Source of the DNA: Candidatus Firestonebacteria bacterium RIFOXYD2_FULL_39_29
GTDB taxonomy: Bacteria; Oederibacteriota; D2-FULL-39-29
Assembly (NCBI GenBank): GCA_001778375.1
Contig: MFGV01000086.1
Span: forward strand, 1 to 63,311
DNA: 63,311 bases
Direction: 5' to 3'
The notes under the pieces are model-generated. The model saw nothing but the letters and a program-made list of their open reading frames with translations. It did no database searches and was not told the DNA's origin. Both the position numbers and the translations under genes were made by a program. Shown one piece after another: positions 52,068 through 59,683 of this stretch. The first letter of the stretch is position 1; every line of letters begins with the position of its first letter.

Positions 52068-52096
52068 TTGACAATGAGGGAAGAGTATTATATAAT
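52068..52096 (+). promoter_or_regulatory. Perfect consensus promoter TTGACA-17-TATAAT
   Basis: TTGACA (52068-52073) and TATAAT (52091-52096) are exactly 17 nt apart. It would drive the KaiC/binding-protein/AraC fusion gene from a start near 52103. Confidence 0.8.
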
Positions 52097-52199: not shown

Positions 52200-54404
52200 A
52201 TGAGGCGGCCCTACATAGAAGAAAATAAACTAAAGCGTATTAAATCAGGGATCTCCGGTCTTGACGATATGTTTAATGGCGGAATAATAAAAGGAAGCCG
52301 TACTTTATTTTCCGGCCAATCGGGAACCGGAAAAACCATACTTTCATTACAGTTTATAAAAGAAGGACTAAAGCTAAATGAAAAGTGTGTTTATATCTCC
52401 TTGCTGGAAGATCCCAAAAGCTCACTCCAGTATTACAATATTGTAAATGTTGATTGGAATTATCATCTAAAAAATAAAGATCTTTTTTTGGTGTATATAA
52501 ATCCTTCGGGAATAAAAAAACTGGAAGAACGGCTCCTGACTATTATGAATACCTCTGAGATTCAAAGGATCGTGATCGACGGATTTTCAGGAATGGTAAA
52601 AGAAAGAGCCTATGAAGATATATACAAAGTTCTGATGTTTATACAAAAAAAGGGGATATCTTGCATAGTAACCACTTCGGATTTTGAAAGAAGAAATACC
52701 GGGGGGAATACCTCGCCTTTGCCGGAGCTTGTTGATAATGTAGTTATATTAAAACAATTGGAGAGCGAAGGAGATACAGCAAGGACGATTAATATTCTAA
52801 AAGCCAAAGGAACTTTTTATGATACAAAAACGAGACAAGTCATAATAGGGAAAAACGGTATTGCAATAAATAAGATACCTTTAGTTGATAATAGCTCGGG
52901 CAAAAAAGTTATAAGTGATACGGAAATAAAATACCATCTATGGAGCTGGTTCCTGAAAGACGAAATGTTAAAAGATTTTAAAAATGCTAATCCCAATATT
53001 GTAATCAATAAAATGGAGGAAATCGGGTCAAGACATGAAATACAAAATTCCCTTGCGGTTCAAAATACTCCGCTTGGAGTTATAGGTTTATCATTTCAAG
53101 AACTCTGCAAGCCTGCCTTAGATAATCAATTGATGAGTTTGGATGACAGTATTACTAAAGATATGTATTTTAAAGGTGCTTTGGAAGCTTGCACTATTAA
53201 CGGGCAAGTCTACGGAATTCCCGATGATGTGGATTCAAGACATTTATTTTACAGAAAAGACTTGCTGAATAAATATGGAATAACTCCTCCTGAAACCTGG
53301 CAGGAATTGATCGATGCAGCAAAGTATATTGTTAAAGGGGAAAAAGATCCAAAGTTAAACGGTTTGTTGGCTTATTGGAGTCATGAAGCGATCTTGACTG
53401 GAATGTTATTTGAAACAATATGGGGTAATAACGGGGATATCTATGATAGCGAGGGCATTTCTATTGTAAATAGTAAGAGAGCAGAAGAGGCCCTGCAGTT
53501 AATGAAGGACTTAATTTATATTCATAAAATAATGCCAAAAGAGATAATACATTCTTTTTCAACTCCTACAGTCGCGGATATGTTCAGGAATTGCGAAAGT
53601 GTTTTTAATATTACGAAGTGTGAATTTATGTTCTCGCAATACAAGAAGGATGATTTTTATAAAGAAAAAGTTGGAATTGCTCCTTTGCCGAAAATGCAAA
53701 AGGACGCGGCGCATTATAATATTATCCGGGGCAACGCGCTTTGCGTTCCAAAAAATACAAGATATCCGAAATCTGCAAATGCATTTTTAAAGTATATAAC
53801 CAGTATGAAAGTCAGCCGGCAGTTTGAAATTGACGGAGGATGGCCTTTTCCCGCAAAAACAGCTTTTTGGGAAGATAAAGAAATATTGAAAGCAAAACCT
53901 TTTTACGCCGGCGCAAAATTTCTCTTAAAAAACTATAAAAACCCGTATGCGGATATAAATAACTTCGATATAATATTTAATCTGGCAAAAAATAATATAA
54001 CCAAAGTAATGAGAGAAGAAAAGGAACCGGCAGAGATGCTTGAACATCTGTCAAAAGAAATATCTTTGTTATCAAAACACCATAAGACTTATAGTAAGGT
54101 TGTTGAAAATATTATGAGTTGTATAAAGGAAAATTACGATAAAGTAATGTCCCTTGAAAATATAGCTAAAGAAGTGCGTCTAAGCCCTTCACATGTCGGG
54201 AAGGTGTTTAAAATGGAAACAGGCAGTACTATATTTGATTATGTGGTAAAAGTAAAGATGGATAAAGCCAAAGAATTTTTATCGGATATAAGATATAACA
54301 TTGGAGAAGTAGCTGCGAAAACCGGATATACGGATACAAAGTATTTTGCAAAGTTGTTTAAAAAACAAACAGGACACACCCCTTCCGAGTACAGGCTTAT
54401 GTAA
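52200..54404 (+). CDS. KaiC-like ATPase / solute-binding / AraC-type triple fusion
   Basis: A 734-residue protein with no signal peptide. Residues 1-230: RecA/KaiC-like ATPase with Walker A GQSGTGKT (39-46), Glu70 in ISLLEDP, Walker B-type IVIDGFSGM (124-132) and ILKAKGTFYDTKTRQ. Residues about 242-625: a fold like family 1 extracellular solute-binding proteins (INGQVYGIPDDVDSRHLFYR, KYGITPPETWQELIDAAKYI, PLPKMQKDAAH, GGWPFPAKT). Residues about 640-734: AraC/XylS double HTH (LENIAKEVRLSPSHVGKVFK; VAAKTGYTDTKYFAKLFKKQ). The likely role is a cytoplasmic sugar-sensing transcription regulator with an ATP-dependent or oligomerising module. I know of no named family with this order. It stands alone behind a consensus promoter. 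Confidence 0.9.
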   Translation: MRRPYIEENKLKRIKSGISGLDDMFNGGIIKGSRTLFSGQSGTGKTILSLQFIKEGLKLNEKCVYISLLEDPKSSLQYYNIVNVDWNYHLKNKDLFLVYINPSGIKKLEERLLTIMNTSEIQRIVIDGFSGMVKERAYEDIYKVLMFIQKKGISCIVTTSDFERRNTGGNTSPLPELVDNVVILKQLESEGDTARTINILKAKGTFYDTKTRQVIIGKNGIAINKIPLVDNSSGKKVISDTEIKYHLWSWFLKDEMLKDFKNANPNIVINKMEEIGSRHEIQNSLAVQNTPLGVIGLSFQELCKPALDNQLMSLDDSITKDMYFKGALEACTINGQVYGIPDDVDSRHLFYRKDLLNKYGITPPETWQELIDAAKYIVKGEKDPKLNGLLAYWSHEAILTGMLFETIWGNNGDIYDSEGISIVNSKRAEEALQLMKDLIYIHKIMPKEIIHSFSTPTVADMFRNCESVFNITKCEFMFSQYKKDDFYKEKVGIAPLPKMQKDAAHYNIIRGNALCVPKNTRYPKSANAFLKYITSMKVSRQFEIDGGWPFPAKTAFWEDKEILKAKPFYAGAKFLLKNYKNPYADINNFDIIFNLAKNNITKVMREEKEPAEMLEHLSKEISLLSKHHKTYSKVVENIMSCIKENYDKVMSLENIAKEVRLSPSHVGKVFKMETGSTIFDYVVKVKMDKAKEFLSDIRYNIGEVAAKTGYTDTKYFAKLFKKQTGHTPSEYRLM

Positions 54405-55363: not shown

Positions 55364-55978
55364 GTGACTTATATGGAATTGAGAGACAAAGTGTCAGGAA
55401 TGCCTCTTTTTAGCTGGCAGGTCCTAAAGATGTTTGGCGGAGGCAGTCAGGAATTAAAGAATCAGCTTTCCCGCTGGAAACAGAGCGGGAAACTCCTTGC
55501 ATTAAGAAGAGGCCTTTATATTTTAAATGAGAAAGACAGAAAACTCTCGCCTTCGAGGTTATTTATCGCTTCAGAAATGTATAAGCCGTCTTATGTCAGT
55601 CTGGAATATGCGCTTTCGTTTTACGGGATTATTCCGGAGAGGGCGGCATCACTGACTTGTATTACCACCAAGAAAACTGAAGTGTTTGAGAATTCATTCG
55701 GAACTTTTTCGTACAGGCATCTCAAACCGGAATGTTTTACCGGGTTTACAGCAAAGAAGGATGAGGGCGGACTTACATATCTTTTTGCCGAACCGGAGAA
55801 GGCGGTGGTGGATTTTATTTATTTAAATCTTAGTAAGTTGAAAGGGGACGGTGTCGAAGTACTGAGGGAGTCGTACCGTTTTAACCTTTCCGTGCGGCTT
55901 AGCCGTGCAAAGCTTCTGATGCTCGCGAAGCTGTTTAATAATGAAAGGTTGCTGGAAATTGTAAAAGGGGTGAAATAA
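55364..55978 (+). CDS. AbiEi-type antitoxin/regulator
   Basis: 204 residues with an N-terminal winged helix (PLFSWQVLKMFGGGSQELKN, LSRWKQSGKLLALRRGLYIL) and an antitoxin domain (PSYVSLEYALSFYGIIPE, FAEPEKAVVDFIYL), the pattern of AbiEi and related 'transcriptional regulator of abortive infection' proteins. GGAG (55353-55356) favours the GTG start. The cognate toxin gene begins 2 nt after the stop. It probably represses its own promoter through the palindrome at 55326-55341. Confidence 0.88.
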   Translation: MTYMELRDKVSGMPLFSWQVLKMFGGGSQELKNQLSRWKQSGKLLALRRGLYILNEKDRKLSPSRLFIASEMYKPSYVSLEYALSFYGIIPERAASLTCITTKKTEVFENSFGTFSYRHLKPECFTGFTAKKDEGGLTYLFAEPEKAVVDFIYLNLSKLKGDGVEVLRESYRFNLSVRLSRAKLLMLAKLFNNERLLEIVKGVK

Positions 55979-55979
55979 A

Positions 55980-56771
55980 ATGATCGAAGTCATCAAGCAA
56001 AGCATCAAAGAAAGTAAAAGCGGTGAAGAGAGGGTAAACAGGACCCGTGAGTTTCTACAGATCCTCATGCTAAAGATCCTTTTTGATCGCGGGTATTTTG
56101 AAAACATCGCTTTTGTAGGCGGAACGGCGCTTCGTATTCTGTATAACCTGCGAAGATACAGCGAGGACTTGGATTTTTCACTGGTAAAAAAAGAAAAATA
56201 TGATTTTAACAAGATTGCGGACTCTCTGCTCTTTGAGCTGGGTAAGAACGGTTTTAAAGTTGAGGAAAAAAGAAGAACAGTTCAGACAGTAAACAGTGTT
56301 CTTCTCAGGTTCAGCGGCTTGTACGATAAGATTGATCTTCCGGGTCAGTCTACTGAGAAGTTCCTGGTAAAACTTGAAATTGATTCCAATCCCCCTAAAG
56401 GCGGTAAAAGCGTTATCGTCCCCGTGACCGACAGGTTCGTTTTTGCCGTAAACACTTTTGACCTGCCCTCGCTTTTTGCCGGAAAACTTCACGCCTGTTT
56501 TTTTAGAAAATACACCAAAGGCAGGGACTTTTATGATCTTGTCTGGTATTTAGGAAAAAGGATCATTCCCAATCTGAAACTTCTTAATAATGCCGTTATC
56601 CAAACAGAAAAAAAAGACCTGAAGCTCACAGAATTGACTTATAAAGAATTTCTTGCCGAAAAACTCAAAAAGGTGGATTTCGCCGCCGTAAGAAAAGACG
56701 TAGAAGTCTTCCTTGAAGACAAAAACGAGTTAAAACTACTGGATAGAGAGCTGATTTTGAAGATGCTCTAA
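55980..56771 (+). CDS. AbiEii-type nucleotidyltransferase toxin
   Basis: 263 residues of the AbiEii/AbiGii family, toxins of type IV toxin-antitoxin and abortive-infection systems that act as nucleotidyltransferases. FVGGTALRILYNLRRYSEDL, then DFSL, carries the polymerase-beta-like GG..S/T..R motif and the EDLDFS metal ligands. LFAGKLHACFFRKYTKGRDFY, then DL, is the second family signature. All key residues look intact, so the system is probably functional. Confidence 0.9.
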   Translation: MIEVIKQSIKESKSGEERVNRTREFLQILMLKILFDRGYFENIAFVGGTALRILYNLRRYSEDLDFSLVKKEKYDFNKIADSLLFELGKNGFKVEEKRRTVQTVNSVLLRFSGLYDKIDLPGQSTEKFLVKLEIDSNPPKGGKSVIVPVTDRFVFAVNTFDLPSLFAGKLHACFFRKYTKGRDFYDLVWYLGKRIIPNLKLLNNAVIQTEKKDLKLTELTYKEFLAEKLKKVDFAAVRKDVEVFLEDKNELKLLDRELILKML

Positions 56772-57033
56772 AAGAAAGTCTATAACGTCTGAAAAGTCCA
56801 TAAGGTCTATAAGGTAAAATCTTGAAAGTCCAAAAGCGTTCTGTCGCTTGTCACCACTTTGTCCAAGTATAGGAAAGTATAGAAATAAAGATGGAGGGAT
56901 TTTCAGATTCTAGTTCATTGACACCATATCTTGTATCAGTGGAATCCGATAGTCTTGTAATCAGTGAAATCGCTTTTCCCGCTTGACAAAAGCATAATAG
57001 CATTATATAATTATATCATATCAAGGAGGCGTT
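56772..57033. other. 262-nt gap with repeat words and a toxin-operon promoter
   Basis: From 56779 to 56830 the phrase aacgtctgaaaagtccataa, then ggtctataagg is the inverted version of the 'gacgttatggac' words at 3964-4010 and 33937-33985. From 56935 to 56975 comes atcagtggaatccgatagtc, then ttgtaatcagtgaaatc, similar to 80-105. The rest is promoter. Confidence 0.5.
56983..57011 (+). promoter_or_regulatory. Perfect consensus promoter TTGACA-17-TATAAT of the RHH/PIN pair
   Basis: TTGACA (56983-56988) and TATAAT (57006-57011) are 17 nt apart. The -10 overlaps the palindrome ATATAATTATAT (57005-57016), a candidate operator for the ribbon-helix-helix antitoxin. Confidence 0.75.
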
Positions 57034-57276
57034 ATGAAAACTGTACAAGCTATAACGGTTACCATCCCAAATGAACTTGCTGCGGAATTAAACCGGATGC
57101 AGAAAACGGAGATGAAAAATTGCAGCAGTATAGTGGCGGACGCGCTGAAAGAATATATAGAATGGCGGCAGTTCAAAGGCCTTCAGAAAGAAGCAGCTGC
57201 TGTGGCAAGAGCGATTGGTGTTTACGATGAATCTGATGTTGAAAGACTCGTGCATGAGTACAGGGCGGGAAAGTGA
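57034..57276 (+). CDS. Ribbon-helix-helix (CopG-like) antitoxin
   Basis: 80 residues. VQAITVTIPNELAAELNRMQ, then KTEMKNCSSIVADALKEYIEW, forms the beta strand plus two helices of a ribbon-helix-helix DNA-binding domain. The C-terminal about 30 residues (AAAVARAIGVYDESDVERLV) would wrap and block the toxin. AAGGAGG is 6 nt before the ATG. It overlaps the PIN gene by 4 nt (GTGA). Confidence 0.88.
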   Translation: MKTVQAITVTIPNELAAELNRMQKTEMKNCSSIVADALKEYIEWRQFKGLQKEAAAVARAIGVYDESDVERLVHEYRAGK

Positions 57277-57773
57277 AAAAGCCCAGGGTTGTTTTTGATA
57301 CGAATGTTTATATTTCTGCTACTGTCTTTCCCGGTGGAGTACCTGAAGAGCTGTTAAAACTTGCCTTTACCGGCGATATTCTGCTTGGTGTTTCAAAAGA
57401 GATATTGGAAGAGCTTTCAAAAGTTTATCTCAGAAAGTTCCATTTAAACAACTTAGCCGTTAACGAACAAATCAAAAGAATACTGAACAACGCCGAATTG
57501 GTCGAACCCGTCGAAAAACTGACTGTAATAAAATCCGATAAGAGCGACAATAAGGTCCTGGAATGTGCCGTTGCCTATAAAGCAGAGATAATAGTTTCCG
57601 GAGATTCTCATCTTCTGGAAGTAAAAAAATATAAGGGAATTTCAATCCTTAAACCCGCCGATTTCTTACGAATGAATGGATCAGAATCGATAAATGACGA
57701 GAGCTTTGCAGGGGAAAAGCATGCAAAATACTTGGTACATAAGCCAGGAAAAATAAAGCAACGCAAGCTTTAA
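57273..57773 (+). CDS. PIN-domain toxin (putative RNase)
   Basis: A 166-residue VapC-like ribonuclease of the PIN_3 type. The acidic residues are in RVVFDTNVYISA, ILEELSKVYL, SDNKVLECAVAY and SGDSHLLEV. The core ends near residue 137 (GISILKPADFLRMNG). A polar tail of about 29 residues (SESINDESFAGEKHAKYLVH, then KPGKIKQRKL) is not part of the usual domain. It starts at GTG overlapping the antitoxin stop. Confidence 0.88.
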   Translation: MKKPRVVFDTNVYISATVFPGGVPEELLKLAFTGDILLGVSKEILEELSKVYLRKFHLNNLAVNEQIKRILNNAELVEPVEKLTVIKSDKSDNKVLECAVAYKAEIIVSGDSHLLEVKKYKGISILKPADFLRMNGSESINDESFAGEKHAKYLVHKPGKIKQRKL

Positions 57774-57900
57774 AAAACATTTTATAGAGTCGTCCTCCCC
57801 ATATGGTAACATCGGTGACTCTAGTGTGAGGGGAAAAAGGAAAATCCGGTTGTATATTTTCATATAAGAATTTGATAAAATACCATTGTGGGGGTTTAAA

Positions 57901-59070
57901 ATGAAAAGGGTTGGACATACACCTAAAAGAAAAAGCAAACCTAGGAAACTCAAGCCTAAAACAGTAAACCATTCACTTTCGATTGGTGATGATAGGGGTC
58001 GTCTTGGTCGGAAAAAAGAAGAGGTTGTATTTCCTGTTGCACCGTCGTTATCAAAAATGCCTAAAAGCTATGGTTTATTCTTTTTGGAGATTAAAAAAAG
58101 AGTTCAGACCGAACGCTTGCGCGTTGTTCTTGCAAGTAACGCTGCCCTTGTTTTAATGTATTGGGATATTGGAAAAGGAATACTTGAAAAACAGAAAGAA
58201 GAGGGGTGGGGCTCTAAAGTTATAGACCGCCTTTCGTCCGATTTAGCAAAAGAATTTCCGGATATGAAAGGTTTTTCTCCTCGGAACCTCAAATATATGC
58301 GTGCTTTTGCAGAAGCCTGGCCGGATAACTCAATTGTGCAAGGGGCACTTGCACAAATAACTTGGTATAATAATATCACTCTATTAGACAAGCTTAAAGA
58401 GTCAAAAACACGGCTTTGGTATGCGCGAAAGGCATTAGAGCATGGTTGGTCCCGTCCGGTTTTGGTCCATCAAATAGAGCTTCATCTTTATGACCGTCAG
58501 GGTAAAACGCTGAATAATTTTGAAATCGCTCTTCCGCCTCTTGATTCTGATATGGCAAATCAGGTTTTTAAAGATCCCTATATTTTTGATTTTCTTGGTA
58601 CCGCCCAACCAAGGCGAGAAGCGGAATTGGAACAGAAGCTGATTGATCACGTACAAAAATTCTTACTGGAGCTTGGTGCTGGTTTTGCTTTTGTAGGTAG
58701 GCAGATGCATCTGGAACTAGGGGATAACGATTTTTACGTGGATCTTTTATTTTATCATCTTAAACTTCGTTGCTATGTTGTGATAGAATTAAAAGCAGGC
58801 GATTTTGAGCCGGGGCATATAAGTCAATTAAATATGTACTTGAATGTGGTTGATGATGTATTGAAGCACAAAGAGGATAGACCAACGATCGGGCTCCTGC
58901 TTGTTAAGCAAAAGAATAAGATGATAGCTGAATATTCTTTGCAGGGTTATTCAAAGCCGATGGGTATTGCGGAGTGGGAAACAAAGATTAAAGAAAGTCT
59001 GCCGAAGGAATTAAAATCGAGTCTTCCCTCGATAGAAGAGCTGGAAGCCGAGTTAAGTAGAAAAAAATAA
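57901..59070 (+). CDS. YhcG/DUF1016 family PD-(D/E)XK nuclease
   Basis: 389 residues. A basic, Lys-rich N-terminus (GHTPKRKSKPRKLKPK) is followed by the N-terminal DUF1016 domain (ASNAALVLMYWDIGKGILEK, FPDMKGFSPRNLKYMRAF) and a PD-(D/E)XK domain with VDLLFYHLKLRCYVVIELKA, giving Asp...Glu-x-Lys. SQLNMYLNVVDD follows. The family is widespread in mobile and defence regions; its function is poorly known. GGGGG (57890-57894) selects this ATG over an upstream GTG. Confidence 0.9.
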   Translation: MKRVGHTPKRKSKPRKLKPKTVNHSLSIGDDRGRLGRKKEEVVFPVAPSLSKMPKSYGLFFLEIKKRVQTERLRVVLASNAALVLMYWDIGKGILEKQKEEGWGSKVIDRLSSDLAKEFPDMKGFSPRNLKYMRAFAEAWPDNSIVQGALAQITWYNNITLLDKLKESKTRLWYARKALEHGWSRPVLVHQIELHLYDRQGKTLNNFEIALPPLDSDMANQVFKDPYIFDFLGTAQPRREAELEQKLIDHVQKFLLELGAGFAFVGRQMHLELGDNDFYVDLLFYHLKLRCYVVIELKAGDFEPGHISQLNMYLNVVDDVLKHKEDRPTIGLLLVKQKNKMIAEYSLQGYSKPMGIAEWETKIKESLPKELKSSLPSIEELEAELSRKK

Positions 59071-59166
59071 CAAAGTGGTATTGTCTGAAAATATATAGAG
59101 CCAAGCTTGCGGAGTCGCTGGCTCCACAAATAAATGTCCTCAGGTGAAATAGAGAGTGTTATGTAG

Positions 59167-59193
59167 AGGGACATAAATGGTAAATATGTCCCT
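59167..59193 (+). promoter_or_regulatory. Inverted repeat hiding a ribosome-binding site
   Basis: AGGGACATA (59167-59175) and TATGTCCCT (59185-59193) are perfect complements, with the ATG at 59177 in the loop and the GAGGG ribosome site in the stem. As RNA it would block initiation; as DNA it could be a repressor site. Confidence 0.55.
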
Positions 59194-59683
59194 GTATGGA
59201 GGGACGCGAAAAAATGAGGGTAGAAAAATTAAAAACAGAACGTTTTATATATTTGAAATTGCAGTACTTGATTGCGATGTAAAAGCAATGAGGAAAATAC
59301 AAATAGAAGCTGAAAAAACTTTGTATAAGTTAGCTGATGCGATAACAAAGGCTTTTGGATTCTTCTTTGATCATCCGTTTGGATTTTATAGTGATTTTGA
59401 AAGAGGAGGAAGTGACTCTAAAATTGGGTTTGAGTTGTTTGCAGATCTGGAGTTGGATGAAGGTCCGTCAAGACCTCATTTTAAAGGCGTTGAAAAAGTT
59501 AAAATAACAGAAGCTTTTAAGACTGTTGGCGACAGAATGTTATTTTTCTTTGATTACGGTGATAACTGGGAATTTTCCATAGAGTTAAAAGAAATAAGAG
59601 ATGGTGAAAATCAGGGTATGAAAACCGCCGTCATAGAAAGCACCGGCACAGCCCCGATACAATATCCACCGTGCGAAAGATAG
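59177..59683 (+). CDS. Plasmid pRiA4b ORF-3-like protein
   Basis: A 168-residue protein of the pRiA4b ORF-3/IS1096 TnpR-like family, often on plasmids and mobile elements. Family blocks: FYIFEIAVLDCD, LYKLADAITKAFGFFFDHPF, then GFY, and MLFFFDYGDNWEFSIELKEI. The end GTAPIQYPPCER matches the conserved GxxPxQYP block and then stops, so the C-terminus is short. Function is unknown. It follows the YhcG gene by about 100 nt and ends the accessory region. Confidence 0.8.
   Translation: MVNMSLYGGTRKNEGRKIKNRTFYIFEIAVLDCDVKAMRKIQIEAEKTLYKLADAITKAFGFFFDHPFGFYSDFERGGSDSKIGFELFADLELDEGPSRPHFKGVEKVKITEAFKTVGDRMLFFFDYGDNWEFSIELKEIRDGENQGMKTAVIESTGTAPIQYPPCER

Follow-up and report, generated by a model that had tools for sequence, protein, structure and literature searches.

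The window analysed here, a stretch of 63,311 nucleotides from Candidatus Firestonebacteria bacterium RIFOXYD2_FULL_39_29 (contig MFGV01000086.1), carries a gene for a transcription factor that uses a periplasmic-type sugar-binding domain intracellularly and links it, in the same chain, to a KaiC-type ATPase. This raises the questions of whether the fusion is real, what the ATPase and the sensor contribute to it, and which genes it controls. We consider it fairly probable that the protein is a one-component regulator in which a cytoplasmic domain senses a sugar, ATP-bound KaiC organises the subunits, and the AraC part acts on nearby glycan-linked promoters. The features of the locus are collected in Table 1.

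Table 1. Positions of the regulator gene, its domains and motifs, its promoter and the downstream defence-like genes in the window
Feature	Position	Strand	Evidence or remark
Sigma-70 consensus promoter, TTGACA-N17-TATAAT	52068..52096	+	12/12 match; about 100 bases 5' of the start codon
KaiC-SBP-AraC regulator gene, 734 aa	52200..54404	+	ATG start; the sister genome has a 72% identical ortholog beside typA
KaiC-type RecA-fold ATPase domain, residues 14-225	52239..52874	+	PF06745, E 1.2e-33; solved KaiC chains are the best matches, E 1.7e-37
Walker A, GQSGTGKT, residues 39-46	52314..52337	+	Read from the letters; conserved in most paralogs
L69-E70, site of the KaiC catalytic Glu pair	52404..52409	+	phmmer alignment to KaiC (...vtfEEsp...), alignment A1
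Walker B Asp, D127	52578..52580	+	Aligned with KaiC 'vviDs'
K201, position of the KaiC subunit-interface Lys finger (ILK-x-K/R)	52800..52802	+	Alignment to KaiC 'ilKfrG'
Family-1 (CUT1, oligosaccharide-type) solute-binding domain, cytoplasmic, residues about 236-632	52905..54095	+	PF13416/PF01547; solved-structure matches
AraC-type DNA-binding domain, two HTH motifs, residues 655-732	54162..54395	+	PF12833, E 1.8e-18; PF00165
AbiEii-type nucleotidyltransferase	55980-56771		Follows a 204-aa gene in an AbiEi-like place
PIN_3 protein	57273-57773		Within the defence-like run
DUF1016/YhcG PDDEXK nuclease	57886-59070		Within the defence-like run
PRiA4_ORF3 protein	59177-59683		Within the defence-like run

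A genuine fusion with relatives in other phyla

Pfam placed three domains on the protein in the order KaiC, solute-binding and AraC, all above the curated cut-offs and as the initial annotation had read them. Membership of the KaiC family was indicated by the Walker A and B motifs together with the fold signature. The middle part carried the SBP_bac_1/8 fold signature of family 1 (CUT1), with SBP_bac_8 matched at residues 256 to 555 (E = 3.3e-20) and SBP_bac_1 at residues 310 to 537, and the C terminus contained the AraC/XylS-type double HTH of about 100 residues, matched by both HTH_18 and HTH_AraC. The Walker A motif ran from G39 through QSGTGK to T46, where it had been located from the letters. 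No signal peptide or membrane helix was found in the protein (the best 19-residue Kyte-Doolittle mean was 0.96), in agreement with the earlier placement of the binding domain in the cytoplasm, and Pfam gave no match to a STAND NOD ATPase core. An AlphaFold model computed from two input sequences had a mean pLDDT of 32.5 and was set aside.

The initial annotation had named beforehand a frameshift or an assembly join of separate genes as what would undo its reading, and had proposed a search of other genomes for the same domain order. Neither fault was found: direct reading of the frame gave 734 residues with zero internal stops, and the same domain order recurred across the phylum, where six of the 45 genomes searched hold 20 full-order copies between them. 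The window's genome holds eight full-length copies, the other seven being 32 to 41% identical to the window copy. The sister genome, that of the relative Candidatus Firestonebacteria RIFOXYA2_FULL_40_8, holds seven; a scan of genome contigs matched this genome only, and its 72% identical ortholog is collinear with the window protein over 711 residues, the whole stretch that its contig holds. Three more genomes of the same order carry four full-order copies (one, one and two), one of the single copies having an internal stop, and one full-order copy occurs in a more distant family of the phylum (G017). Beyond the phylum, three of the sampled genomes of the same domain matched. Two of them (G172 and G309), both genomes examined of one other phylum, passed the Pfam cut-off for KaiC (E = 4.5e-23 and 3.6e-10); the third (G204) came from a 40-genome phylum in which two further genomes (G409 and G410) matched too, and in these three the N-terminal region was of the right length and in the right place, with KaiC below the cut-off or undetected. 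Related proteins are present in at least two phyla beyond that of the Firestonebacteria. Given the many independent copies, an artefact can be accorded next to no credence and was rejected; the fusion of KaiC, solute-binding and AraC parts is genuine, neither chance nor an assembly join.

No full-order match was found in G002 (same genus, 94% complete) or in G003 and G004, both other genomes of the family, so the KaiC-SBP-AraC family is not universal even among close relatives. One genome, G014, encodes two SBP-AraC proteins without KaiC. In a FastTree phylogeny of 27 members, in which deep branches were weakly supported, the window copy paired with the sister-genome copy C167 as orthologs, and the within-genome sister pairs (C25/C39 in the window's genome, C135/C144 and C54/C68 in the sister genome) indicated recent duplications. 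A ninth copy in the window's genome, on contig C10 (L098, G000:C10:5000-6500), is decayed, an internal deletion having joined the start of KaiC to the end of AraC; this remnant adjoins an NHL-repeat gene and a GH4 gene.

The KaiC-type ATPase and the putative sensor domain

The window protein retained Walker A, D127 and the second catalytic Glu of KaiC (E70), with Leu (L69) in place of the first, such that of the catalytic pair the second alone is kept. The first Glu was replaced in all 15 copies of the genus and the second was lost in four, and the Walker B Asp was conserved in 14 of the 15 (Glu in the sister-genome copy C29). The P-loop was degenerate in C39 of the window's genome (GHFGTDKK) and in C29 of the sister genome (GHAGVDKT). 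Two aligned g3 members, from the neighbouring family f2, kept both Glu residues and had Asn for the Walker B Asp. K201, at the position of the subunit-interface lysine finger of KaiC, was invariant in all 17 aligned core members. Loss of the first Glu makes an active ATPase harder to claim but leaves descent from the KaiC family untouched, and we read the conserved features as pointing to ATP binding and subunit contact rather than hydrolysis. The invariance of K201 makes ATP-dependent oligomerisation, one of the two roles proposed for this module in the initial annotation, plausible. Since KaiC has decayed in G204, G409 and G410 and is absent from G014, the family as a whole does not depend on ATP use.

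The other proposed role, timing, did not find support. Like cyanobacterial KaiC, the KaiC part might be a live ATPase acting as a timer or phosphorylation switch, which would determine how long the regulator remains active; the intact Walker A and B motifs and the second Glu of the window copy are in favour of this, as is one copy of the window's genome, C57, with a CI-CII-like layout of tandem KaiC domains. It is nevertheless very unlikely, because no match to KaiB was obtained at an E value of 0.001 in the window's genome (assembly 96% complete), the first catalytic Glu is replaced in every copy of the genus, the P-loop has decayed in several relatives and two relatives lack KaiC altogether, and most copies, including that of the window, have a single KaiC domain. 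A Kai clock was rejected on the missing KaiB match and the loss of the catalytic Glu. The C57 protein (L034:8148-11018, 956 aa) carries its two KaiC domains ahead of the SBP and AraC parts.

The solved structures nearest to the solute-binding domain were MalE3 (6dtq; E = 1.9e-30), a trehalose/maltose-binding protein (1eu8; E = 4.8e-28) and the sulfoquinovosyl-glycerol binder SmoF (7nbz; E = 1e-27), all sugar binders of CUT1 importers. Neither the secretion signal or lipobox nor the linked permease of such importers accompanies the domain in the window's genome, where permease-family matches lay on contigs C1, C21, C24, C74 and C93 and none on the contigs that bear the regulators; a role as an ABC-importer binding protein was therefore rejected for the copies of this genome. 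When the pocket was mapped by pairwise alignment onto the ligand contacts of 1eu8, the columns near the ligand contacts varied strongly (the D345 column held D, N, Y, S, G, K, L and H). The canonical sugar-stacking Trp in the vicinity of W257 of 1eu8 is replaced in this genus and kept in distant relatives; a ligand other than a classical maltodextrin is thus conceivable. The variation of the pocket would fit different ligands between copies, and also a loss of binding.

A useful contrast to the cytoplasmic domain of the regulator is offered by a genuine sugar SBP elsewhere in the same genome (L096, G000:C1:21500-27500), where an 802-aa protein fuses the solute-binding domain to a membrane-embedded permease and has as its neighbour a permease of 631 aa that carries a long insert. 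Open frames of 698 to 808 aa in G003 and G004 match the SBP part and are akin to the L096 protein.

Neighbouring genes and the proposed mechanism

Neighbours of the copies were tallied by eye. In the window's genome, C20 has a NAT-like gene 15 bp upstream, a PcRGLX-type lyase gene downstream and a GH31 gene three genes off, and three other copies (C81, C34 and C57) are followed on the same strand by an outer-membrane-like gene (about 370 to 390 aa) and then a giant secreted PQQ-propeller/Big_1 gene (L028:10669-18000, L030:1-7612 and L034:3-6465; the giants reach 1800 to 2100+ aa and are all cut by the end of the stretch). In the sister genome, a polysaccharide deacetylase gene lies 8 bp upstream of C144, ceramidase-like and GH42-like/DUF4832 genes lie near C15, and enolase-superfamily and sugar-isomerase-like genes surround C29. 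Copies in G005 and G008 have an FAD-oxidoreductase gene 1 bp upstream and a GH28 gene downstream. Chitinase-type and CBM5/12 genes are near the KaiC-less proteins of G014; GH57, GDE and CBM genes are near the G172 copy; GHL10, GH57 and an ordinary SBP gene are near that of G309; and an SBP gene and a permease gene are near that of G204. In two phyla, one represented by G309 and the other by G204, G409 and G410, type II pseudopilin-like and secreted beta-helix-type genes stand beside the regulator in varying orientation (L091:11129-13276, L092:5690-7887, L093:9965-12328 and L094:1587-3874). A glycosidase is not among the immediate neighbours of C38, C39, C81, C34, C57 or the window copy. Because many copies adjoin genes for secreted or sugar-acting proteins, the family probably switches on such nearby genes in response to particular sugars.

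Two other readings of the sensor bear on this conclusion. If the solute-binding domain were a scaffold or protein-interaction module without a small ligand, the signal would be the ATP level or a partner protein; this would account for the strong variation of the pocket columns, the loss of the stacking Trp in the genus and the fact that the invariant residues are mainly framework (YRKDL). We regard it as doubtful, since every copy, even in the KaiC-less lineages, has the full clamshell of about 390 residues, distant relatives retain the Trp, and divergent ligand specificity would give the same pocket variation among paralogs. It is also conceivable that the ligand belongs to another family-1 class (a polyol, an amino sugar, or a lipid-linked or peptide fragment) and that the targets are surface-protein genes rather than those of sugar catabolism, as the outer-membrane-like and giant-protein pair beside three copies of the window's genome and the pseudopilin-like and beta-helix-type genes beside those of G204, G309, G409 and G410 might suggest. 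However, the nearest solved binders take sugars and glycoside hydrolases recur near other copies, which makes this reading unlikely.

The simplest reading remains the ligand sensing with AraC output that the initial annotation put forward. In the sugar-sensing mechanism that we favour, the cytoplasmic Venus-flytrap clamshell of CUT1 type would bind an imported sugar or oligosaccharide, and its opening and closing would control subunit assembly, as a dimer or a ring, mediated by the ATP-binding KaiC-like domain. Because the first catalytic Glu is missing, hydrolysis should be slow or nil, and ATP would then be a structural or licensing ligand, not a timer. The AraC double HTH would bind repeats at the promoters of neighbouring secreted or glycan-active genes, and the family may have multiplied in the genus so that copies with divergent pockets read different sugars.

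The regulator resembles MalT in logic, SgrR and Btr in sensor use and KaiC in ATPase descent, and belongs to none of these systems. Like MalT of Escherichia coli, it is a single chain with an ATP-binding oligomerisation module, a sugar sensor and an HTH for the control of sugar-use genes, and published work on MalT describes inducer-dependent multimerisation of the ATP-bound form (PMC4381067, PMC10427625). MalT differs in having a STAND NOD rather than a KaiC/RecA fold and a TPR-type sensor rather than an SBP clamshell, so the likeness is an analogy of design, not homology. The HTH of MalT is of the LuxR type, versus the AraC HTH of the regulator. SgrR and Btr are one-component regulators whose sensor is cytoplasmic and of solute-binding type, and Btr also has an AraC HTH; their SBP families differ, being SBP_bac_5-like in SgrR and siderophore-type in Btr. 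They share with the KaiC-SBP-AraC protein the use of an SBP fold as an intracellular sensor within a transcription factor but lack an ATPase domain. SgrR responds to sugar-phosphate stress (PMC4021124). KaiC and the archaeal KaiC-like ATPases belong to the same PF06745 family, and among solved structures KaiC chains match the ATPase part best; archaea have KaiC fusions to signalling domains (KaiC-REC) as well as divergent, possibly inactivated 'iKaiC' copies (PMC5847659). The regulator departs from the KaiC systems in lacking a KaiB match and in that most copies have a single KaiC domain, to which SBP and AraC parts are fused. Homology to the CUT1 binding proteins extends over most of the sensor domain, whereas in the regulator this domain has no signal peptide and no permease partner in its own genome and is fused to cytoplasmic domains.

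Literature searches, with partial coverage of subscription journals, found no work joining KaiC, solute-binding and AraC, and nothing on SBP-AraC regulators or on SgrR with solute-binding. What is new is the combination of known modules, in which a KaiC ATPase is added to one-component regulators with a cytoplasmic SBP sensor. More tentatively, the proteins may represent a class of one-component glycan sensors, licensed by ATP and not described before, that is rooted in at least three bacterial phyla and has grown in Firestonebacteria to a sugar-specific set, with ATP-bound KaiC rings arraying clamshells and double HTHs on promoters. If the favoured mechanism holds, the regulator would be a second, independently built solution to MalT's task of coupling sugar and ATP to transcription and a bacterial role for KaiC outside clocks. 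The glycans to which an uncultivated phylum responds would also become predictable, since the neighbours and pocket of each copy can be read from sequence.

The typA locus

The initial annotation described the window gene as standing alone behind a perfect TTGACA-17-TATAAT promoter, with its targets elsewhere. The promoter is as described and is the sole 12/12 match in the regulator region. The isolation holds for the window copy only: in the sister species the GH123 gene and then the regulator lie behind the same promoter, and many other copies abut genes for glycan-active or secreted proteins. In both genomes typA lies upstream of the regulator (80% identical). In the sister genome a 566-residue secreted protein with matches to the GH123 N-terminal domain is encoded between the two, its gene ending 6 bp ahead of the regulator ortholog, and an exact TTGACA-N17-TATAAT (L027:4096-4124) lies beyond typA and ahead of the GH123-regulator pair; bases that flank it are also common to the window and L027 (GTTGACAATG). 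No GH123 gene, not even a remnant, was present at the window locus, and a search without a positive control gave no match elsewhere in the window's genome. The window regulator thus stands alone because the GH123 partner gene is missing there. Most likely, the window copy was formerly the second gene of a glycosidase operon; alternatively, the sister species gained the GH123 gene, and the shared promoter favours loss in the window lineage over such a gain.

Comparison of the region upstream of the window gene with that of its ortholog revealed, promoter aside, only short chance-level matches and no operator motif. A 38-bp intergenic block was common to G409 and G410 only. Exact TTGACA-N17-TATAAT sequences occurred three times in the 63 kb (at 52068, 56983 and, on the minus strand, 38298) versus a base-composition expectation of about 0.03, which suggests that strong consensus promoters are real in this organism. 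The window regulator is followed downstream, from 55364 to 59683, by a series of genes that resemble those for defence and toxin functions.
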